The position numbers were made by a program, and so were the translations under genes. From the IMG/VR virus record IMGVR_UViG_3300043775_000860, positions 1-64,000 of that record: a stretch of 64,000 bases of DNA; one strand, 5' to 3'. Source of the DNA: a virus. Below are positions 3,906 through 19,900 of this stretch, in pieces. The number at the start of each line of letters is the position of its first letter. Within the stretch, counting starts at the first letter, position 1. Below the pieces are notes generated by a model. That model ran no database searches, had not been told where the DNA came from, and was given only the letters and a program-made list of their open reading frames with translations.

Positions 3906-5009
3906 CTATGCGTGGTAAGTTATGACTTCGTTCTCAGAAAACCAATCGTCACATCCATTGCAATGATAGTTACTGAATCCGTCATGGTCAAGGTCATTAA
4001 AACAATTTATACAGATAGGTTTCTCGTTCTTCACATCGAACTCATCATCGTCACTCAACTCGTCAAAGTACAACTGCCTACCCAACCTCCTCTCAGCCTC
4101 AAGCACCTCATCCTCATCTTCCTCCCACCACTTCTTAGTCTCGCTCTGCTTGATGAATGACACTGACTGTGTGTAGGTCTCATGAACCTCCTGCCCTCTG
4201 TACTTGTCAGCTATGTTAAAGTATATCCAACAAGTTAGCGTCCTGCCGTCCTTCATCTTGATTGGTATCTGCTTGCGCCTGTACCAATTCGGATGACCCT
4301 CCAACGCATCTAACCCCTTCATCACTGAATCACTAACCTTGAACACATCAACCTCAACATTGTACCCTATGCCCTTCATCTCAAAGAGGTAGGGCAAACC
4401 CGATATGATTAGCGGATACTTGTCTTCTGTCTTACCTGCGCCCAAATGTTTTGAGGATGTCAAAAACCTATTGTAGTTGCTGTACCCCTTCTTGAGCGTT
4501 CCATACACCGCAACTAAATTATCCTCAAGCACATTGCCCTTGCTGTACCAAATGCCATCACGCTGAATCCACAAGTGCTTGTTGTACATCTGAAACGTTC
4601 TGTTGCGGGTGTTGATAGTCACGAACCTGCTGTCATACTTCTCCAACTCCCTCTTCCATGTGTGCCTCGGAACATCCCCCAACGATTCAGCAAGTACCCT
4701 TGAATCACTCTTCTTGGCATTGCCCATGCCCATGATAGTTCCGTTCATCATCAACCACTCATGCCTGTTGTTCCCGCACCTAAATGGATGCGTATTCTCT
4801 TGATTTACAGCGCCTACTGTGGCGTATCTAAAGTGACAGATGAAGGGTCTGTCGGTATCCAATACTTTGTATTGGTTTGATTTGTGGTATGTCACCTCGA
4901 AGGTGTCCAACCAAATAACTCCTAACCCATGCGGGTTGATTCTGCTTGAGGTCTTTGCAACCTCCTTCGGAAGGGTCATACCCTTCTGCTTGATAATGAT
5001 TATGCACAT
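3906..5009 (-). CDS. Class II glutamine amidotransferase / gamma-glutamylcyclotransferase / zinc-ribbon fusion
   Basis: 367 residues with three parts. (1) Residues 1-160, an Ntn-type class II amidotransferase: Cys2 as nucleophile once Met1 is removed, HFRYAT at 59-64, Asn89-Gly90, and SDSRVLAE at 101-108. (2) Residues 165-270, an AIG2/gamma-glutamylcyclotransferase fold: YGTLKKG at 169-175 and the probable catalytic Glu237 in ALEGHPNWYRR. (3) A C-terminal zinc ribbon with Cys333, Cys336, Cys350 and Cys353 after an acidic linker. Known members of the first two families hydrolyse glutamine amide and cleave gamma-glutamyl groups. With the amidoligase at 6988-7884 it may form a gamma-glutamyl or peptide-tagging pathway; that is inference. 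A dispersed palindrome lies 19 nt before the start. Confidence 0.8.
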   Translation of the reverse strand: MCIIIIKQKGMTLPKEVAKTSSRINPHGLGVIWLDTFEVTYHKSNQYKVLDTDRPFICHFRYATVGAVNQENTHPFRCGNNRHEWLMMNGTIMGMGNAKKSDSRVLAESLGDVPRHTWKRELEKYDSRFVTINTRNRTFQMYNKHLWIQRDGIWYSKGNVLEDNLVAVYGTLKKGYSNYNRFLTSSKHLGAGKTEDKYPLIISGLPYLFEMKGIGYNVEVDVFKVSDSVMKGLDALEGHPNWYRRKQIPIKMKDGRTLTCWIYFNIADKYRGQEVHETYTQSVSFIKQSETKKWWEEDEDEVLEAERRLGRQLYFDELSDDDEFDVKNEKPICINCFNDLDHDGFSNYHCNGCDDWFSENEVITYHA

Positions 5010-5028
5010 AGTGTTTGGTTTGTGGGTA

Positions 5029-5044
5029 GTGTCTTCGAAGACAC
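5029..5044. repeat. Dispersed palindrome, copy 2
   Basis: GTGTCTTCGAAGACAC, perfect, in the 5' leader of the amidotransferase fusion gene. GGGT and ACCC on either side can extend the hairpin across small bulges. Confidence 0.8.
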
Positions 5045-5105
5045 AGAACCCGGTTAATGTACTAAAGATGAACGAAGATACGACAATAATTGAACACTGC
5101 CAAAT

Positions 5106-5267
5106 TTACTTTTTCAATCTTGCCTTAAATTTTTCTCTAACAAGTAGCGGACGGGTGGCTGAAAACTTTGTCCAAGCTTTCTCAACTGCCTCCCACTTGC
5201 TGTGTGCTATGATGTCTGTAATGAAGACGCCACCATAGTAGACTTTGAATAGCATTTCTGATTCCAT
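5106..5267 (-). CDS. Small hypothetical protein (53 residues)
   Basis: It starts MESEMLFKVYYGGVF and ends with the basic KFKARLKK. The ATG follows the leader AACCAAATCAAAACACA, the type used throughout this operon. It fills the space between the fusion gene and the structured RNA at 5287-5332. No family is recognised; the Trp-rich middle (SKWEAVEKAWTKF) looks amphipathic. Confidence 0.6.
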   Translation of the reverse strand: MESEMLFKVYYGGVFITDIIAHSKWEAVEKAWTKFSATRPLLVREKFKARLKK

Positions 5268-5286
5268 TGTGTTTTGATTTGGTTAG

Positions 5287-5332
5287 GAACTGAGGGTGGT
5301 AACGAACCACCTTCGCTCATTGCTCTCAGTTC
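5287..5332 (-). ncRNA. Three-helix RNA element of unknown class
   Basis: On the minus strand GAACTGAG and CTCAGTTC form a perfect 8-bp outer stem. Inside is a hairpin GGTGG-TTCGTTA-CCACC, and a 13-nt stretch with a possible short GC/GC stem and the strand GCGAA. It starts 7 nt after the stop codon of the upstream gene. The layout recalls the hammerheads nearby, but CUGAnGA is not intact and GAAA is reduced to GAA. It could be a decayed or variant ribozyme, or a tRNA-like acceptor plus T-arm mimic. Confidence 0.45.
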
Positions 5333-5339
5333 TTGGGTG

Positions 5340-5567
5340 TTAATTTGTCGGAACCCAACCGACCTCAATTCCGATGTCATTCCCATTGGCAATGGCATCC
5401 TTGATTTCCTGAAGACTCCTGAGCCACCTGTCTGTGCCGTCAGGCATCAACTCATGGTATTCGAAGACAAGAGGACTGCACTCGAAAAGAATCTCCGCAT
5501 AGGGCGTTACTACGTGCCATACAAGGACTGAATCGTTTCTTCTGTTCGTGATTCTAAATTTTTTCAT
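5340..5567 (-). CDS. Hypothetical protein
   Basis: 75 residues from the ATG at 5567, chosen because it follows the leader AAACCAAACAGT. A longer in-frame version would overlap the zinc-finger gene upstream. The sequence is mixed, with a hydrophobic middle and a C-terminal GIEVGWVPTN. No known family is recognised. The stop codon is followed by the structured RNA at 5287-5332. Confidence 0.55.
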   Translation of the reverse strand: MKKFRITNRRNDSVLVWHVVTPYAEILFECSPLVFEYHELMPDGTDRWLRSLQEIKDAIANGNDIGIEVGWVPTN

Positions 5568-5577
5568 ACTGTTTGGT

Positions 5578-5766
5578 TTAATAATCATCATCAAGATACT
5601 CGCCCGCATCCATGTAGTCATGGTATCGGTCACGCCTGTATGGATACTTGTCACCATCGTAGCACTCGTCACACCAATGACCTGTACTTATTCCATACGC
5701 ATCTGACCTCTCTTCCACCCACTTGTCGGGATTCATCTCATGGGATTGCTCACAACCCCTGCACAT
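5578..5766 (-). CDS. Small zinc-finger protein
   Basis: 62 residues from the ATG at 5766, which follows an A-rich GAAAAAATC leader; an alternative ATG six codons upstream overlaps the preceding gene. Two CxxC pairs, CRGC near the N-terminus and CDEC about 30 residues on, should bind one zinc ion. The C-terminus is Tyr/Asp-rich (AGEYLDDDY). The function is unknown. Confidence 0.6.
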   Translation of the reverse strand: MCRGCEQSHEMNPDKWVEERSDAYGISTGHWCDECYDGDKYPYRRDRYHDYMDAGEYLDDDY

Positions 5767-5773
5767 GATTTTT

Positions 5774-5959
5774 TCACGCCTCATGGTCTTCGGTTTTGCT
5801 GTTATAAACTTCAGCACCCCACTTGGTGTGCCTGTCATGCTTGTAGACTGAAAACAAGGCATCCATGTACATCATGAATTCTTTCTTGTCTGCATCATTG
5901 AGGTAAAGCAGTCTGTCGATTACCCCTTGAATAACTTCTAAACGCTGTTGTTCTGTCAT
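5774..5959 (-). CDS. Hypothetical protein, first gene after an internal promoter
   Basis: 61 residues, helical (LEVIQGVIDRLLYLNDADKK), with no known motif. The ATG at 5959 is preferred over an upstream TTG. It is the first gene downstream of a good Bacteroidota-type promoter at 5977-6007. Confidence 0.6.
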   Translation of the reverse strand: MTEQQRLEVIQGVIDRLLYLNDADKKEFMMYMDALFSVYKHDRHTKWGAEVYNSKTEDHEA

Positions 5960-5976
5960 GTTGTTCAATTTTAGTT

Positions 5977-6007
5977 CAAAGATAATACAATTCTAGATAT
6001 AAACAAA
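5977..6007 (-). promoter_or_regulatory. Bacteroidota-type promoter
   Basis: On the minus strand TTTTG and TATCTTTG are separated by 19 nt, matching TTTG-N19-TAnnTTTG. It lies between radC and the gene 5774-5959, so it probably gives the downstream half of the operon its own start point. Confidence 0.55.
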
Positions 6008-6008
6008 A

Positions 6009-6452
6009 TTAAATTAATCCATTCTCGTTGAATGAATAGTAGCTTTCATCTGTGATAATGAGATGGTCAAGCAACTTCATGTCAAAGAATGCACACGCGT
6101 TCTTAATCTTCTCAGTGATTGACCTGTCGCCATCAGAAGGTTTGAGGTTGCCACTTGGATGGTTGTGGGCAAGGATGATTGAAGAGCAGGCGTTCTGCAA
6201 CGCTATGGTCATTACAACCCTTGGGTCTAAAACTGTCCCGCTGAACCCGCCCGAACTTACTCGGTAGTACCCAACAACATCATTGGCTCTGTTAAGGCAC
6301 ACCATGATGACCTCTTCTGTCCATAAAATTGTGTCGGCATTGAAGATTGAGCGCATAACCTCAACCATTTTTTCGGGGCTTGTGATAGTCACCCTGTCAC
6401 CCTTGGTGACACTGACCTTCACCTTAATCTGTGGGAACTTGTACTTTTTCAT
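6009..6452 (-). CDS. radC: RadC-like JAB/MPN-domain protein
   Basis: 147 residues with a complete JAMM metal-binding motif: His96, His98, Ser106 and Asp109 in AHNHPSGNLKPSDGD, and a plausible Glu46 or Glu47 upstream. LDHLIITDE follows as in RadC. It lacks the N-terminal helix-hairpin-helix part of bacterial RadC and so is a minimal phage version. The biochemical role of RadC proteins is poorly defined. The ATG lies exactly 22 nt after the predicted cleavage site of the hammerhead at 6469-6536, so its mRNA 5' end may be made by that ribozyme. Confidence 0.8.
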   Translation of the reverse strand: MKKYKFPQIKVKVSVTKGDRVTITSPEKMVEVMRSIFNADTILWTEEVIMVCLNRANDVVGYYRVSSGGFSGTVLDPRVVMTIALQNACSSIILAHNHPSGNLKPSDGDRSITEKIKNACAFFDMKLLDHLIITDESYYSFNENGLI

Positions 6453-6468
6453 GTGCTAAATTTTAATT

Positions 6469-6536
6469 GGTTAAGACGGGAGGGGTTGCTCGTTCCTCGC
6501 TCCCGTTTCGGGTATTCAACCCATCGTCAGTTAACC
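6469..6536 (-). ncRNA. Hammerhead ribozyme-like RNA, type I (HHR1)
   Basis: Minus strand, 5' to 3': stem I strand GGTTAA, core CTGACGA, an extra T, stem II GGGT-TGAAT-ACCC, core GAAA, stem III CGGGAG/CTCCCG closing on the cleavage triplet GTC, then stem I strand TTAACC. Predicted cleavage is between 6475 and 6474, leaving a 22-nt leader for radC. Stem I starts within the last codons of the gene 6531-6761 and includes its stop codon. Compared with HHR2, stems I and II differ by compensatory changes while the core is constant. The unpaired T before stem II is a deviation from the consensus. Confidence 0.8.
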
Positions 6537-6761
6537 TCGGTGGTACTTCGACCCATCGGCGTGGGGGTTGATGCTCATGTCATGCTCGGCTTCTTGTAGC
6601 CACTTGGCATACTCAAGCATGAGATTGACGAAATTGGTATCGTCATACCCCTCAAGGGTAATCCACATGATGTCAGCATCGCTAGTGTCTGAGGCAATGC
6701 CCTTAGAGGCTAAAAAGAACTCCATTGTGGCGCTCCAATCGAAATGGTAGGTCTGTGTCAT
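6531..6761 (-). CDS. Hypothetical protein upstream of HHR1
   Basis: 76 residues, acidic with aromatic residues (HFDWSATMEFF near the N-terminus). No family is recognised. The leader AACCATTAAATTTTAATCAC resembles those of radC and the amidoligase. Its final Gly codon and stop codon form the first strand of HHR1, so cleavage would leave the whole gene on the upstream fragment with a structured 3' end. Confidence 0.6.
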   Translation of the reverse strand: MTQTYHFDWSATMEFFLASKGIASDTSDADIMWITLEGYDDTNFVNLMLEYAKWLQEAEHDMSINPHADGSKYHRG

Positions 6762-6765
6762 GTGA

Positions 6766-6849
6766 TTAAAATTTAATGGTTAAACCTAGTAAAAGAAGGA
6801 AGGCAATGATGGTCAAGAGCAAGGCTGTGTTTGGTTCTGAATGTTTCAT
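6766..6849 (-). CDS. Very small membrane protein (27 residues)
   Basis: A short hydrophilic start (MKHSEPNT) is followed by about 17 hydrophobic residues (ALLLTIIAFLLLLGL), then TIKF. This predicts a single membrane helix with the N-terminus probably outside. The ATG follows AACCATTAAAC, the same leader type as its neighbours. Short length is the main doubt. Confidence 0.5.
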   Translation of the reverse strand: MKHSEPNTALLLTIIAFLLLLGLTIKF

Positions 6850-6904
6850 GTTTAATGGTTTTGATGGTTTCTGAGGGGGGCAGTCACGCTCTGCGTGGCT
6901 GTTT

Positions 6905-6954
6905 CCGTTTCGCCCTTTTGGGCTCATCAGCATGGGCAAACACCCATGGACGGT
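6905..6954 (-). ncRNA. Hammerhead ribozyme-like RNA, type III (HHR3)
   Basis: Minus strand, 5' to 3': CCG then the cleavage triplet GTC, closed stem I CATGGG-TGTTTG-CCCATG, core CTGATGA, stem II GCCC-AAAA-GGGC, core GAAA, and CGG closing stem III with CCG. The conserved core strands and the A:T pair next to the cleavage site are present. Stem III has only three G:C pairs plus that A:T pair, which is short. Predicted cleavage is between 6949 and 6948. It follows the amidoligase gene and the palindrome at 6959-6974. Confidence 0.7.
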
Positions 6955-6958
6955 GGGA

Positions 6959-6974
6959 GTGTCTTTGAAGACAC
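6959..6974. repeat. Dispersed palindrome, copy 3
   Basis: GTGTCTTTGAAGACAC, between the stop codon of the amidoligase and HHR3. G and C runs on the two sides can extend it to a strong hairpin. Confidence 0.75.
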
Positions 6975-6987
6975 CCCCCTTCGCACT

Positions 6988-7884
6988 CTAAAGATACTGT
7001 TGGATGCTTTCGTGGATTGTTCCGGTAAGAATGAACTTTCGGAAATGCCTTGCCAACTCAAGAATCTCATTGGTCTTCTCTTCGTCACCATTGTACATGG
7101 ATTTGATGATGGGGCGAATGGTCTTCAGAAACGCCTCATGTGACCCATTAGGCTTGTTGACTGAGAAATCAACCAACTCATGCATCAGTTCATACCTGCG
7201 AATCATCTGCTTAACGCTTTCGAAGCGGGAAGGCACTCTGAACTCAAGGCAATTGTCTTTGACCAAGGCAACTTGGTACTTGTTATCCCAAAGGTGGGAT
7301 GGGCACTCAGAATAGGTCTGCATCCTGTTGTTGTACTTGCAATAGGTGTTTTTTAACCTGTTGCGAAACAAGGCGTAAACAATGCCACAATTTCCCCTTA
7401 CCATGCCCCTTAGGTCGTTACCATTGAACCCTTCAACAGCAATGGTAATGTGACCACCACAGCGTTTGTCTGAAGGGCTGAAACGGTCTTCAATGATACG
7501 GTCTGCCTTATGCATCATGTCGAAAACCTTGTTGCGCCATGTGGATGCAGGAACAAGGGGCAGAATGTGGGTGACTGCCTCATAGCCACATGAGCCGTCC
7601 TTCTCAAACCCGCAGAACAGCTCATATTCACGAACAGCGCTGCGGTGTAGGCTGTTTTTCTCTACCTCAAAACCAATGGTGAACTTGCTCCTGTAGTCAC
7701 CGAAAGACTCAATGAGATTGCCCCTTTGAGCCTTCTTGAGACCCGCAATGTCACCCTTCTTTGCCTTGCCCGAAATGTTGACGGGGTGGGGCTTGTTGTG
7801 GTATTCTTGAACTTGACCCCTAGACACCATTTGACGGTATCTGTTTAAGCCGTTTCCTTGCAATGTGAACTCTAAATTTTGCAT
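6988..7884 (-). CDS. Amidoligase-like (GCS/glutamine synthetase-fold) enzyme
   Basis: 298 residues from the ATG at 7884. The motif order fits the amidoligase family related to gamma-glutamylcysteine synthetase: GFEVE (71-75), EKDGSCGYEAVT (94-105), CGGHITIAV (142-150), FRNR (173-176) and LEFRVPS (213-219). The acidic and His residues in these motifs match ATP/metal-binding positions of the family. Members join a carboxylate to an amine using ATP. The substrate is unknown. The amidotransferase/cyclotransferase fusion in the same operon suggests gamma-glutamyl or peptide chemistry. The start lies exactly 22 nt after the predicted HHR2 cleavage site, and HHR3 follows the gene. Confidence 0.65.
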   Translation of the reverse strand: MQNLEFTLQGNGLNRYRQMVSRGQVQEYHNKPHPVNISGKAKKGDIAGLKKAQRGNLIESFGDYRSKFTIGFEVEKNSLHRSAVREYELFCGFEKDGSCGYEAVTHILPLVPASTWRNKVFDMMHKADRIIEDRFSPSDKRCGGHITIAVEGFNGNDLRGMVRGNCGIVYALFRNRLKNTYCKYNNRMQTYSECPSHLWDNKYQVALVKDNCLEFRVPSRFESVKQMIRRYELMHELVDFSVNKPNGSHEAFLKTIRPIIKSMYNGDEEKTNEILELARHFRKFILTGTIHESIQQYL

Positions 7885-7900
7885 AAATTGAAATTTTAAT

Positions 7901-7955
7901 GGTTTGGACGGGGTTTGACCCCCGTTTCGGCTATTCAAGCCATCATCAGCAAACC
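7901..7955 (-). ncRNA. Hammerhead ribozyme-like RNA, type I (HHR2)
   Basis: Minus strand, 5' to 3': stem I strand GGTTTG, core CTGATGA, an extra T, stem II GGCT-TGAAT-AGCC, core GAAA, stem III CGGGG/CCCCG closing on the triplet GTC, then stem I strand CAAACC. Predicted cleavage is between 7907 and 7906, 22 nt before the amidoligase ATG. The first base is the last base of the stop codon of the gene 7955-8578. Stem I has six perfect pairs that co-vary with HHR1, and one stem II pair is swapped (C:G for G:C). Confidence 0.85.
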
Positions 7956-8578
7956 TATTGCGCTGAATTCATGGCATCAATCAAAAAGTTGATAGCCGAC
8001 TGAATTTCATCCCTTGAATTGGTAGTTTTGACTTCACCCGCCTCATTAATGCGGATTGAAATGTTTTTGTCGGGATGTTTGAAAGCAAGGGTAAAAATTG
8101 TGGCTGACCTTGTTTCCACTTCAGCGCCTTCACCACCCTCTTCGCCATTTCCACCCTCTTCGCCTTGCTCCACAGCCTTTGCAAACTTCAGCAAGTTTTC
8201 AATAGACCTTACCACCTCTTCACCCCTGCCTTCAGCCTCAAGGCATTTCTGATTGAAATTCTCAATTACCCTAAAGTCTAACTTGCCGACCTTAAGCAAT
8301 TTGTAGCTGAAGGATTTCTGCCACCCGAACACCTTTAGGAAAAACTCCTCATTTGTCCAACTTATGCCCTCCTCATTCATCTTGGCTTTGCCCTCTTCTG
8401 AGGAAAACCAAGCAAATGAATCCTTAACGGCATTGGCCAACAGAATGCTGTTGTCAAATTTTTTCTTCTGTGCATTGGTGTCGGCTCTTCTCAATGCATT
8501 GATGGTTTGGAGATTCAAGAACCTCTTCACTTCGGGATTACTAAGAAACGCCTGTTCGATTGAAAGTAAATTGCTCAT
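7955..8578 (-). CDS. Hypothetical protein, first gene of the left operon
   Basis: 207 residues. The N-terminal two thirds are helical, with WQKSFSYKLLKVGKL near residue 87 that could be part of a DNA-binding region. A Glu/Gly linker (about 137-155, EQGEEGGNGEEGGEG) leads to a small C-terminal beta-rich domain with FKHPDKNISIRI. No known family is recognised. As the first gene of the operon it may be an early regulator, but nothing proves this. Confidence 0.65.
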   Translation of the reverse strand: MSNLLSIEQAFLSNPEVKRFLNLQTINALRRADTNAQKKKFDNSILLANAVKDSFAWFSSEEGKAKMNEEGISWTNEEFFLKVFGWQKSFSYKLLKVGKLDFRVIENFNQKCLEAEGRGEEVVRSIENLLKFAKAVEQGEEGGNGEEGGEGAEVETRSATIFTLAFKHPDKNISIRINEAGEVKTTNSRDEIQSAINFLIDAMNSAQ

Positions 8579-9097
8579 TGTTTTTGTGTTTAATGATTAA
8601 ATATTTCACAATACTAGTTCAATACTTTTACATTTCCAAAAATATTTGAAACTTTTTTCCGAAATACTTTTCATTTCAGCGCAAACCATTGTCAACAAAG
8701 GGATTGAGCTAGTTGATTGAATAGACGAAAATTTGACGGGGAATGAATAGAGCGGGGGGTTAACCCCCTCTTCGGGGTGTCTTCGAAGACACTTTTGTTT
8801 TAAGTTTTACTTGAGGTAAGCCTTGCAAGGCGTTGATATTGAATAAATTAACAGGGCTGTGAATATTGCGCAGGATGCGGGGCAGGGGGCGGGGCAATTT
8901 CGAACAGCGCAGGTGTGGCGCTCCTATCATGTGGCAAAAAGCTAAAAAATCGACCGAAGCAGGGCAAGGTCAGACCCCCACCCCCTCAAAAAAAAGTCGT
9001 TTCCGGGCGGGGCCCACGCTCGCAGAACCGCTATATAACCCCCGTACTACGCATATCTGAATTACGCAATTGCTTATCTTTACTGAAACTTTATTTT
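8579..9097. other. Divergent intergenic region with GC-rich patch
   Basis: About 520 bases with no gene I can support, separating the minus operon from the plus-strand cassette. It holds CAAAAATA (a minus-strand TATTTTTG, 8637-8644), the perfect palindrome GGGGGTTAACCCCC (8755-8768), a dispersed palindrome (8777-8792), then an unusually GC-rich stretch (about 8868-9010) with several runs of four or five G and later runs of C that could pair with them. AGCGC and GCGCT form a further hairpin near 8911. An origin, packaging or control region is possible. Confidence 0.5.
8777..8792. repeat. Dispersed palindrome, copy 4
   Basis: GTGTCTTCGAAGACAC, perfect, in the divergent region, preceded by GGG and followed by TTTTGTTTT on the plus strand. 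Confidence 0.8.
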
Positions 9098-9295
9098 ATG
9101 TACAACGATTTAACTGTTAAGAATGGCAGGCTTATAAACAATAGGCCGAATGGAGTTACCGGCATTCAGCAGGCGGCTCAGATTAAGAAGGACCTCAAGC
9201 GTGAGAAGAAGATTGAGATGATGACTGAGGCTATTTACAGGGCGGAGATGCGTTCTGAGATGGTTGAGTCCATGATGGGTAAAAAAGAGGATTAG
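9098..9295 (+). CDS. Small hypothetical protein ahead of the chaperonin cassette
   Basis: 65 residues from the ATG at 9098. The protein is basic and helical (IKKDLKREKKIEMM) and Met-rich at the C-terminus. A longer in-frame extension runs back into the GC-rich region and is less likely. TATCTTTA 20 nt upstream is a near match to a -7 element. It is followed by a terminator. Confidence 0.5.
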   Translation: MYNDLTVKNGRLINNRPNGVTGIQQAAQIKKDLKREKKIEMMTEAIYRAEMRSEMVESMMGKKED

Positions 9296-9324
9296 ACGAG
9301 ATTTATGAAATCTTGTTTAAATTA

Positions 9325-9365
9325 GGGAGGGGTCACTTTGGTGGTTTCTCCCTTCTTCTTTTTAT
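9325..9365 (+). terminator. Probable Rho-independent terminator
   Basis: GGGAG pairs with CTCCC, with an inner CAC/GTG stem and G:T pairs between, followed by TTCTTCTTTTT. It closes the small gene 9098-9295 and isolates the chaperonin promoter. Confidence 0.65.
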
Positions 9366-9369
9366 ATTA

Positions 9370-9535
9370 CCCGATTATCTGTCATTGAATGATAGATTTT
9401 ATGACACTTAACTAATTGATTATTAAACTACTGTCAATTATGTCGATTTTTTTTCCGATTTCTAGTGGGAAATAAATAATAAAAGGAGGTAAATATATAT
9501 ATATATATAGGGAAGGATGAGATTGACATGGTGGT
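9370..9535. other. AT-rich non-coding locus with TGTC repeats and a TA run (copy B)
   Basis: Shares with positions 1-165 the elements GATAGATT, TGTCAATTAT, GTCGATTTT, T-runs, AAT repeats and a TA run followed by AGGGAAGGA. It contains four or five TGTC motifs on either strand. There is no gene. It lies between a terminator and the GroEL promoter. Confidence 0.45.
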
Positions 9536-9547
9536 TTTGGAATAAGC

Positions 9548-9579
9548 TTTTGTAATATCATTAAATCATTTTACTTTTG
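9548..9579 (+). promoter_or_regulatory. Promoter of the chaperonin cassette
   Basis: TTTTG (9548-9552) and TACTTTTG (9572-9579) are separated by 19 nt, a good Bacteroidota -33/-7 match. It lies 39 nt before the GroEL start codon. Confidence 0.65.
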
Positions 9580-9581
9580 TT

Positions 9582-9602
9582 ATGCCATGCTACGCATGGT
9601 AT
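9582..9602 (+). promoter_or_regulatory. 5'-terminal hairpin in the GroEL leader
   Basis: ATGCCATGC pairs with GCATGGTAT around the loop TAC (9 bp, one G:T). It would be at or within a few bases of the transcript 5' end predicted from the promoter, and may protect the mRNA. Confidence 0.5.
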
Positions 9603-9617
9603 ATTAAATCAAATCAA

Positions 9618-11216
9618 ATGGAATATTCACCTAAGGAATTGGTCTTCTCGGAAGAGGGCCGTATTAAGTTGGTTTCAGGTATTAAGAAAATTGCCGGTGC
9701 TGTTAAGAGCACGTTGGGTCCTAATGGCAATACTGTTTTGATAGAGAGTCCACATCATGTTCATGGTATTACTGTCACGAAGGATGGGGTAACTGTTGCG
9801 AAGGCGGTTGACTTGTTGGACCCTGTTGAGAACTTGGCGGTCAAGATGATGAAGGAGGCTGCTGATAAGACAGCTACCCTTGCAGGCGATGGTACGACAA
9901 CGGCAATCGTGCTCACGGAAGCGCTAGTGCTTGGAGGACTAAGTATGATGAAGCCCCACCACAATCGGACTGAGGTGTTGAGACAGATGTTGGAGATAAG
10001 CAATAAGACGGTGGATAAGCTTCGCAGGAGGAGCAAGAAGGTATCGAGCAGTATGTTGGTGGACATTGCGTCTATTTCGGCTAACAATGACAAGGAGATA
10101 GGTAGGATTATAGCTGAGGTTTACAAGGATGTTGGTCGTAATGGTATTGTAACGGTAGAACGGTCACAAACAACCGATACGTATGCTGAGACCACTATGG
10201 GCTTGAAGATTGACAGGGGGTATTTGAGTCCGTTGTTTATCAACGACCAAAAGAAGGACGAGTGTGTGTTTGAGGATGTGATGGTATTGGTAGCTGACAT
10301 TGAGATAGGAAATATTTTGCAGATTGAGAACGTATTGAAACCAATTATACAGGAAGGGAAGAAGCTTTTGATTGTGGCTCCGTGTCACAACAATGTGGTC
10401 AATACGTTTGCTGCCAATGTGATGAAGAACAACTTGAAGATTTGTGCGGTTCAGCCGCCTAGCTTTGGGTATAAGCAGCATGAGTTGATGCAGGACTTGG
10501 CGGTATCAGTAGGTGCTACCTACTTCAGTGAGAAGACCGGTGATGACTTGAGTCATATCAGCTATTCTGATTTGGGTCATGCTGCCAAGGTGATTGTTGG
10601 AAGGGATAGGACTGTTTTGATTAAGAGTGATTCGAAGATAGACCCTCAGAAGGTTGAGGAGAGGGTGTCTCAGTTGTGGGATGCGCACAAGTCTGCGACC
10701 AAGAAGGCTGACAAGGATTTCTTAGTGGAGCGAATAGCGTCTCTTACGGGGGGCATAGGGGTCATTTATGTTGGCGGCAATACCGACCTAGAGCAGAAGG
10801 AGTTATACGACCGTGTTGACGATGCTGTGTGCGCTGTGAGGTCAGCTTTAGAGGAGGGAATCCTTCCCGGTGGGGGGAAAGCCCTCTACGAAGTAGAGGT
10901 ATATACCCTACTAGGCGAGATTGCCTCCGAGGAGCAGGACATAGCAGCTGCGATTTTGGATAGTGCATTGAAAGCACCGCTTGAGCAGATACTAACTAAT
11001 GCCGGTTTGAAGGCTGAGGACTACTACACATCAGACATTGGTGAGGGTGTGGGGTTGAACGTGAAGACGGGTAAGATTGGTGACTTGATTAAGATGGGTG
11101 TTATTGACCCGTTGAAAGTCACCCGTTCTGCTTTGCAGAATGCGGTGTCTGTTGCAACAACTATCCTTTCAACCAATGCTATCATCACGATGGCGCGCTC
11201 ATATGAGACCAAGTGA
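9618..11216 (+). CDS. groL: Phage GroEL-type chaperonin
   Basis: 532 residues from the ATG at 9618, which follows the leader AAATCAAATCAA; an earlier in-frame ATG lies in the leader hairpin and adds a non-conserved extension. Type I chaperonin motifs are present: TLGPNG (32-37), TKDGVTVAK (54-62), GDGTTT (90-95) and a C-terminal PGGGKALYE block. The equatorial domains are well conserved, the apical domain less so, and the C-terminus ends SYETK without the GGM repeats of bacterial GroEL. It should form an ATP-driven folding chamber with the GroES encoded downstream, perhaps for capsid or fibre proteins. Confidence 0.92.
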   Translation: MEYSPKELVFSEEGRIKLVSGIKKIAGAVKSTLGPNGNTVLIESPHHVHGITVTKDGVTVAKAVDLLDPVENLAVKMMKEAADKTATLAGDGTTTAIVLTEALVLGGLSMMKPHHNRTEVLRQMLEISNKTVDKLRRRSKKVSSSMLVDIASISANNDKEIGRIIAEVYKDVGRNGIVTVERSQTTDTYAETTMGLKIDRGYLSPLFINDQKKDECVFEDVMVLVADIEIGNILQIENVLKPIIQEGKKLLIVAPCHNNVVNTFAANVMKNNLKICAVQPPSFGYKQHELMQDLAVSVGATYFSEKTGDDLSHISYSDLGHAAKVIVGRDRTVLIKSDSKIDPQKVEERVSQLWDAHKSATKKADKDFLVERIASLTGGIGVIYVGGNTDLEQKELYDRVDDAVCAVRSALEEGILPGGGKALYEVEVYTLLGEIASEEQDIAAAILDSALKAPLEQILTNAGLKAEDYYTSDIGEGVGLNVKTGKIGDLIKMGVIDPLKVTRSALQNAVSVATTILSTNAIITMARSYETK

Positions 11217-16940: not shown

Positions 16941-19900
16941 ATGGCACGGATAAGTACATACGCAATAATATCTACTCCTACACTGAACGATTTGTTAATC
17001 GGAACAGATGTAGAAGACTTAAATAATACTAGAAACTTTTCCCTTGCTGATATAGGAACGCTCATAGGACAATTCTATGTTCCTTATGTCGGCGCTACGG
17101 GTAATGTAAATCTAGGTGCATACAGCATACAAGCTTCTGCTTTTATTGTTCCGGGAGGTCTTTCTTCACAGTTTGTTAAGGCTGATGGAACGCTTGACTC
17201 AACGGCTTATACGCCTCAGTCACGCACACTTACTATTAATGGTGTAACCTATAACCTTTCACAAGACAGGACTTGGAACCTTGGTACTATAGATACCTTG
17301 ACAACAAATGGCACGGGTGGTGCTGCAACTTATTCGGCAGGTGTTCTTAATATACCTATCTATCAGTCTCAAGGTAACTACATAACACAGCTTTCGGGTG
17401 AGGCTACTGCTTCAGGTCCGGGAAATGCTACTGTTACCTTAAGCAATAGCGCTGTAATCAACAAAATATTAACCGGGCTCAACATTACCGGCGGTAATGT
17501 GGTGGCTACAGACAGTATACTAGAGGCGTTTGGTAAGGTTCAGAACCAAATCAACGGTCTAATTGGAGGTGTTCAGTACCAAGGCACATGGAATGCGGCT
17601 ACAAATAATCCTTTCTTACAGAGTTCAGTAGGTGTTCAAGGTCATTACTACGTTGTAAACGTGGCAGGTAACACCAACCTTAATGGTATTACCTCTTGGA
17701 ACGTGGGTGATTGGGCCATCTATGATGGTACAGCGTGGAATAAGGTTGACAATACTGATGCGGTAGTAAGTGTAAATGGGTATACGGGTGCTGTTGACCT
17801 TACGTATAGTGATGTTGATGCGGCGGCGGCTGCGCTTGTGCTTACAATCAATGGTATAGGGTATGATTTGAGTACGAATAGGTCATGGACCGTAGGTGAT
17901 GTTAGAACCGACAGTACTTATTACAATCCAACGTGGATAACAGCACTAGCTTGGAGCAAAATTATTAATACACCCACTACTCTTGCAGGGTATGGGATAA
18001 CTGACGCTGTTTCTGATAGCAGAACGCTGTCCATTAATGGCGTTGGTTATGATTTATCTCAGGATAGGTCATGGTCAGTTGGTACAATTACTTCTATTTC
18101 GACAATTTCCCCACTTACGGGGGGTACGATTACGAGTTCGGGGTCGATAGGTATCACCCAATCGGGCTCTGTAATGGACGGATACCTCAGTGCAGCTGAT
18201 TGGAACACTTTTGATGCGAAGCAAGATGCACTTGTTCCGGTTGGGCCCATTACTTTGGTGGGGGTAAACATAGGTATAACTCAATCAGGCCCATCTTCTG
18301 ACGGTTACTTGAGCAGTTCTGATTGGAATACATTCAATGACAAGCAGGACCCTATTACAAATCCTGTTACCGGTACGGGAACTCCTTACACAATCCCAAT
18401 GTGGAGTTCTGTCAACACAATTAGCGACAGTAACTTGTCTTATGCTTCTGATACTTTTACTTTCGAGTACAATAGTATTACAGGGGCTTCTGTTGTGTTT
18501 ACAAACATAGGCAGTTTCCCATATACCTACTCTATACAAATGAATAACTTCGGTTCGCCGAGGGCAACTATTCATGAGTATAGCGATGGTGAGATAATTC
18601 AAACCATATCAGGTGTTCAAGTATCAAAGATATTCCCTGATGGTACTACTATAATAGGCACTAGCATAACAACCAATGGTTCTCTTCTTCAAGTTTATGG
18701 AGACCTATTTGTTGATGTTATAACAAACGCAGTTACTGACACAGATAAGTTTTTAGTATCTGATTCGGGTGTTGTTAAGTACAGGACAGGAAGTGAAGTG
18801 CTTAGTGATATTGGAGCTGTACCGACAACAAGAGAACTTACTATAAACGGTGTCTCATACGACCTTTCTGCGAATAGAACGTGGTCTGTAGGTACAGTTA
18901 CCTCTGTAGACATGAGCGTTCCTACAGGATTTTCTATTGGAGGCAACCCGGTTACAGGAGCAGGCACTCTTGCTCTTTCGTTTAGCGCAGGTTATTCTCT
19001 TCCCACAGATGCAGTTCAATCAACTTGGACGACTGCATACAACAGGAGTTTGACTTCTGCGGCAGTTACAGGAACGACTACAAAAACATTGACTCTAAAT
19101 CAGCAGGATGGTGGAACCATTACTGCTACTTGGAGTGATTTCGATACCGCCCCGGTTACAAGTGTGTTCGGAAGGACAGGGGCTATCATAGCTCAGTCAG
19201 GTGATTACACTACGACCCTTGTTACCGAGGGCACTAATTTATATTATCTTGATTCAAGGGCAAGAGCAGCAGTAAGCCTTACTACGCTTGGCAATAGTGG
19301 ACCTGCTACTTATAGCAGTCTTACGGGTATATTCAATATCCCTGAATACACCATAGGTGGTTTGGGTGGAGTACCAACATCAAGGACACTGACAATAAAC
19401 GGCACTTCATATGACTTGAGTGCAGATAGGTCTTGGTCAGTTGGTACTGTAACGAGCGTAGATATGAGTGTACCCACCGGGTTTGCTATAGGCGGCAATC
19501 CTGTGACATCAAGTGGTACGCTTGCTTTGAGTTTTGCTTCCGGATACAGCCTTCCAACGAATGCCATTCAAGCTACTTGGACTACGGCGTACAATGATTC
19601 AATTGTTTCTGCTTCTGTAGCAGGAACTTCAACCAAGACACTTACTCTGAACCAACAAGATGGAGGAACAATTCAAGCATCTTGGAGTGATGCAGACACC
19701 GGACTGACTTCGGTTGGATTGTCAATGCCTGCAGCGTTTTTGGTGTCAAACACTCCATTGACTAGCAATGGTGTTATAGCTGTTACGGGGGCAGGTACAG
19801 CCTCTCAATATGTAAGGGGTGATGGTCAGTTGGCGAACTTCCCTAGCAGTGGTGGTGGTGGTTCTTCGGTTAACTACTACTTAAATGGTAGTGTAAATCA

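Follow-up and report, generated by a model that had tools for sequence, protein, structure and literature searches.

Three motifs resembling hammerhead ribozymes lie between minus-strand genes in the 64,000-nt stretch of viral DNA analyzed here (referred to as the window), which raises the question of whether they are genuine hammerheads and what several of them would do in one operon. In the direction of transcription, the first motif follows a 207-aa open reading frame (ORF) without a family match (7955..8578, minus strand) and precedes a 298-aa ORF without a Pfam match (6988..7884, minus strand; 316 aa as listed, with a TTG start). The second separates this ORF from a 27-aa ORF for a possible membrane peptide (6766..6849, minus strand). 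The third lies between a 76-aa ORF (6531..6761, minus strand), whose TAA stop falls within stem I of the ribozyme, and the gene for a RadC-like JAB domain protein (6009..6452, minus strand; PF04002, E = 7.2 × 10−38). The 298-aa gene is conserved, with 56 relatives or viral loci in IMG/VR. That its product might be an amidoligase, an idea suggested by motifs and by a GATase/GGACT neighbour, found no Pfam support. The same operon encodes a 367-aa protein (3906-5009) with class II glutamine amidotransferase-like and gamma-glutamyl cyclotransferase parts (PF13230, PF06094). A phage-encoded GroEL-like chaperonin of 544 aa (9582-11216) adjoins the operon; its DNA was the sole part of positions 4000-10000 that matched the phage collection (groeL of MW202828).

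Sequence inspection and a strict descriptor (CUGANGA, stem II, GAAA, stem III with an A15.1-U16.1 pair, H17, and stem I) identified all three motifs as hammerheads at the places where the original prediction had put them, and comparative evidence upheld its assignment of two to type I and one to type III. The descriptor matched exactly these three sites in the window and none in a reversed-sequence control of the window and its relatives (~0.7 Mb). The core pattern alone is not rare (five matches in the window, two of them overlapping, against 1.2 expected), so that significance rests on all three stems. The conserved core CUGANGA...GAAA as well as the predicted GUC cleavage triplet and A15.1-U16.1 pair were present in each of the three motifs.

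Both type I elements are closely fitted to the neighbouring genes. The first (7901..7955, minus strand; stem I GGTTTG/CAAACC) has a predicted cut between 7907 and 7906, with the ATG of the next gene 22 nt beyond the cut, and it begins with the G that ends the upstream gene's TAG stop (TAG at +1). For the second (6469..6536, minus strand; stem I GGTTAA/TTAACC), the cut is predicted between 6475 and 6474, an ATG again follows 22 nt beyond it, and stem I holds the upstream TAA stop (6533-6531; TAA at +6). The type III element (6905..6953, minus strand) would be cut between 6949 and 6948, and its ribozyme body would remain on the downstream RNA. The 5′-OH ends proposed earlier at 7906, 6948, and 6474 are thus correct as predicted from sequence. 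Missed at that stage was a single U inserted between A9 and stem II in both type I cores (CUGANGA-U-GGNU...ANCC-GAAA); the type III element has no nucleotide at this point, in accordance with the consensus core. The extra U is a known tolerated deviation, not a defining loss. The CChMVd (+) hammerhead (De la Pena and Flores 2001) likewise has an extra residue between A9 and stem II; that hammerhead belongs to a viroid, and the extra-U elements described here are of type I and reside in phages. A U after A9 is reported to have raised the rate 3-4 fold.

The Infernal comparison with Rfam proposed in the original prediction bore out one family only. The type III element matched RF00008 significantly (42.0 bits, E = 2.6 × 10−7; gathering score 48.5) and is a type III hammerhead by structure, just under the curated cut-off. 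RF00163 had no match in the window, and neither type I element there had a convincing Rfam match. Under minimum free energy (MFE) folding, the two type I elements took the hammerhead fold, and the type III element folded by itself gave a competing structure 3.2 kcal/mol lower than the hammerhead.

A descriptor scan of 56 related viral loci yielded about 100 hammerheads, nearly all intergenic and on the gene strand. Because sequences chosen by the descriptor already demand pairing, the search was repeated with the core alone; cores picked without any pairing demand provide an independent test. In the window and its relatives, 134 distinct cores were found, stem II being present in 93 and all stems in 83 (80 on the gene strand of the loci, here the plus strand, and three on the minus strand of the window). 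The corresponding numbers in reversed sequence were 17, one, and zero. Compensatory changes had initially been claimed from two sequences only; covariation became strong once relatives were added: in the descriptor-chosen alignments, 14 of the 15 type I pairs and 13 of the 17 type III pairs showed two-sided change. Cells with two-sided change numbered 106 versus 25 in shuffles for type I and 228 versus 69 for type III, counts that stem from relatives sharing ancestry and do not represent independent events. Three helices meeting at the core are supported by covariation, and the core-only search agrees. Chance resemblance is rejected by the reversed and shuffled controls.

A type III model (R1) built from 54 relatives including the window element matched in 27 of 32 related records and assigned this element, as a member of its training set, 70.5 bits (E = 1.3 × 10−17). 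Type III elements of two related loci, L013 and L009, pass the RF00008 gathering score (49.2 and 48.7 bits). The RF00008 members (Hammerhead_3, the type III of plant satellites and viroids) share helix order and core with the type III elements described here, which differ from them in their phage mRNA context in place of circular RNA replication. Conserved loops (UGNGU in loop I of type III and UNAAU in loop II of type I) are compatible with a contact between stems I and II; the former resembles the stem I loop of satellite tobacco ringspot virus. A type I pseudoknot between loop II and the 3′ tail (UUNAAU with AUUAAA) was considered and dismissed: the window tail conforms to it, but those of relatives do not.

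Applied to 12 nearly complete genomes, the scan gave 46 matches (three to five each) versus seven in controls. The 46 include at least two clearly spurious matches (long, inside coding sequence, and far from the cluster; genomes G020 and G010). With these set aside, all matches fell within one gene cluster, at two to five per genome, and not at every junction of it. Some relatives of the 298-aa gene had no hammerheads at that gene's junctions, and none was detected in MW202828. Variant cores were also seen. About 20 type III elements from the core-only search carry a U·U or A·A mismatch in place of the G10.1-C11.1 pair (L041:7089, L043:10690, and some 18 others, e.g. L017:9693 and L026:9971); the U-U mismatch at this position is treated as tolerated variation by Perreault et al. 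2011 (PMC3088659). Two type I elements of a single phage (L011:7322-7376 and L011:7582-7633) have U15.1-A16.1 instead of A-U, a rare swap for which weak activity is reported.

The arrangement of stop, cut, and start recurs far beyond the window. A scan of viral contigs with the type I 5′ half only (GGTTAACTGANGA...CGAAAC) returned at least 120 stretches, and 80 loci were read. Among the matches listed, 91 of 94 distinct 5′ halves were followed by a complete 3′ half, compared with two of 94 when the downstream DNA was shuffled. Of 79 nearby upstream ORFs, again among the matches listed, 55 take their stop codon from the ribozyme itself (TAG at +1, TAA at +6, or TGA at +10), and 20 more end within 6 nt before it. 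This overlap is partly automatic, as the ribozyme necessarily holds a stop in two of three frames. Close abutment of the stop together with a fixed leader (cut-to-ATG distance with median 22 and interquartile range 20-24, among the matches listed) is not. In this GGUUAA/UUAACC family, stem I always has 6 bp and hardly varies; the extra residue following A9, present in six of 94 type I elements among the matches listed, is always a U. Type I topology and an open stem I are shared with RF00163 (Hammerhead_1) and RF03152 (RAGATH-1). The best relative reached 19.9 bits against the RF00163 cut-off of 34, and scores for RF03152 were 18-29 bits (best relative 28.6), so far below its cut-off of 56.3 that identity with RAGATH-1 was rejected. 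These sequences form a large type I family that lies below Rfam cut-offs, is missed by the current models, and usually has the stop built in or abutting; as far as we found, it is new.

Type III sites are mostly located 15-65 nt past a stop codon, and a separate hairpin takes the place next to the cut. In the window, the hairpin GGGGGTGTCTTCAAAGACACTCCC (6955..6978, minus strand) stands just before the type III cut and would form the 3′ end of the upstream mRNA. A stable hairpin (free energy of −8 kcal/mol or lower over the final 40 nt) ending no more than 7 nt from the cut was present at 51 of 54 type III sites, which are related by descent and are not to be read as independent events, versus 10% of windows drawn at random and 16% of ribozyme-free intergenic windows. 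Palindrome patterns based on GTGTC-N6-GACAC and its clade variants account for 42 of the 54 pre-cut hairpins, the others being unrelated; as the sequence varies, it is the structure that is conserved. No U run was found after the hairpins at the 54 sites, and no minus-strand terminator-like site was found, which argues against intrinsic terminators at the junctions. In type I elements, stem III is the equivalent hairpin. The same palindrome forms the type I stem III in four relatives (L010, L045, L047, and L050) and also stands before a type III cut in three of them (L045, L047, and L050). Given the hairpin at nearly all type III sites, both types should leave the upstream mRNA with a terminal hairpin. 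The hammerhead was the MFE structure in only 34 of the 54 type III sequences. As far as we found, a pre-cut hairpin of this kind is new.

Comparison of close relatives revealed two kinds of exchange. At the junction before the 298-aa gene, type I is present in the window and in L010, and type III in L008, L009, and L011, all five belonging to the same well-supported group. In addition, L047 and L045 differ by a 272-nt block comprising one ORF and a type I ribozyme, and L013 and L015 by a 408-nt block comprising one ORF and a type III ribozyme. The flanks of both blocks are 92-97% identical, and the differences represent gain or loss, in either direction. Replacement of one type by the other at a single junction and gene-plus-ribozyme units that differ as blocks between close relatives are both new as far as we found.

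The terminase encoded in the window is closest to that of MW202828 (77%), followed by Flavobacterium elemo phages (45%) and Cellulophaga phages (36-39%), and points to a phage of Bacteroidota, probably of Flavobacteriia. An Erythrobacter host was discarded; it rested on one partial match in a metagenome-assembled genome, where the contig is probably of phage origin and mis-binned. A type I element lies at a gene junction of the cultured Flavobacterium phage elemoA_2-5C (record positions 16946-16972; TAG stop at +1, ATG ~25 nt past the cut, and a single mismatch in stem III), which also carries a type III element (record positions 18714-18766; 42.4 bits). BLAST with the type I sequence hit 14 elemo records, with 100% identity across the core in nine. 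An elemovirus on Flavobacterium sp. BAL314 is a cultured phage-host pair suited to experimental follow-up.

Several hammerheads in one operon, put forward in the original prediction as a notable arrangement, are real here (three in the window and two to five in each of the 12 genomes, next to genes and on the strand of a single transcript). A retrozyme or other circular RNA element, in which direct repeats of identical hammerheads would bound a non-coding unit, was rejected, as the elements differ in type and sequence and adjoin different protein genes. Clusters of hammerheads in phages were on record by 2011, so the arrangement as such is not new. In the passages considered, Perreault et al. 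2011 (PMC3088659) describe mixed-type hammerheads clustered around genes in prophages, e.g. a triple array around ardA in Agrobacterium, report in vitro cleavage of arrays and, for a triple array comparable to the one here, cleavage in E. coli, and propose RNA processing into single-gene or short-operon mRNAs. The elements studied here likewise are of mixed type and flank single genes in phage DNA. They differ from what those passages cover in (i) belonging to a Bacteroidota phage lineage, (ii) their conserved junctions, (iii) the built-in stop and fixed ATG distance, (iv) the hairpin before the type III cut, and (v) type replacement and the gain or loss of blocks. A search of the open-access literature found no description of the built-in stop, fixed leader, pre-cut hairpin, type replacement, or cassettes.

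What phage hammerheads do has been listed as an open question (PMC6155905). The comparative evidence supports the earlier idea of gene punctuation, and we think it likely that the elements punctuate mRNA by cutting the operon RNA co-transcriptionally into single-gene mRNAs. The minus-strand operon would give one long transcript, in which each ribozyme would cut in cis between two genes. Type I would act as a compact stop-cut-start unit with the upstream stop in or next to its 5′ strand; after cutting, the upstream mRNA would end flush in a hairpin formed by stem III, and its downstream counterpart would begin with a 5′-OH and a leader of ~22 nt. Type III would cut between the separate hairpin, destined for the upstream 3′ end, and the ribozyme body, destined for the downstream 5′ end. 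The resulting single-gene mRNAs would have a 3′ hairpin with a 2′,3′-cyclic phosphate and a 5′-OH, and probably separate stability and translation. Whether the wider picture also applies seems to us evenly balanced, namely that the stop-cut-start module, with types I and III interchangeable, is the standard separator in one operon of a Bacteroidota phage lineage, that the GGUUAA type I serves in many other phages, and that a gene together with its ribozyme comes and goes as a self-contained cassette and gives rise to a separate mRNA whose 3′ end is protected. Punctuation would be a natural design for splitting polycistronic RNA, and it is a falsifiable answer, with exact cut sites, built-in stops, a fixed start distance, and a 3′ hairpin in both types.

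Active ribozymes might instead mainly lower or time expression, the cut ends being exposed to decay and the arrays acting as negative regulators. In engineered systems, hammerheads in untranslated regions can reduce expression, and some junctions of the cluster have no ribozyme, as might suit such a role. However, the flush or nearly flush 3′ hairpin upstream and the short or structured 5′-OH leader would be expected to protect and not to expose, and the spacing of stop and start stays tight, which makes this reading improbable. The blocks gained or lost among closely related phages have their breakpoints next to conserved ribozyme or leader sequence, which would also fit hammerheads kept mainly as homologous landing sites for cassette swaps between phages, with cleavage secondary. 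This we hold for quite unlikely: extensive compensatory change in the stems lowers DNA homology while the RNA fold is kept, types I and III swap at the same junction without overall homology, and selection appears to act on RNA structure and cutting. Least probable are chance hairpins or inactive relics that merely resemble hammerheads. Two of the three window elements do deviate from the consensus, and in silico folding of the type III element favours another structure; yet the strict descriptor found nothing in the reversed control, the R1 score is high, the core is conserved and the stems covary across dozens of phages, and the extra-U form recurs.

The window also contains dispersed palindromes. 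The 16-bp palindrome GTGTCTTNNAAGACAC was found at 5029, 6959, 8777, 13331, 36766, 51383, and 61089, and genomes of the group carry ~8-14 copies each, located in gene gaps and at conserved intragenic positions (e.g. in the genes for the 745-aa terminase, a 486-aa helicase, and a 2562-aa protein). It may serve as an operator for a binding protein or as a hairpin promoter. Other clades carry different palindromes (AGTCTGTTCNAACAGACT, GTGTACACATGTACAC, and GTGTCCTACAGGACAC). In a distant relative (L103; MW202828.1, 37648-56556), 14 identical copies of the perfect palindrome GTGTCGTTAACGACAC occur within 19 kb; many stand between genes, a short distance ahead of an ATG.
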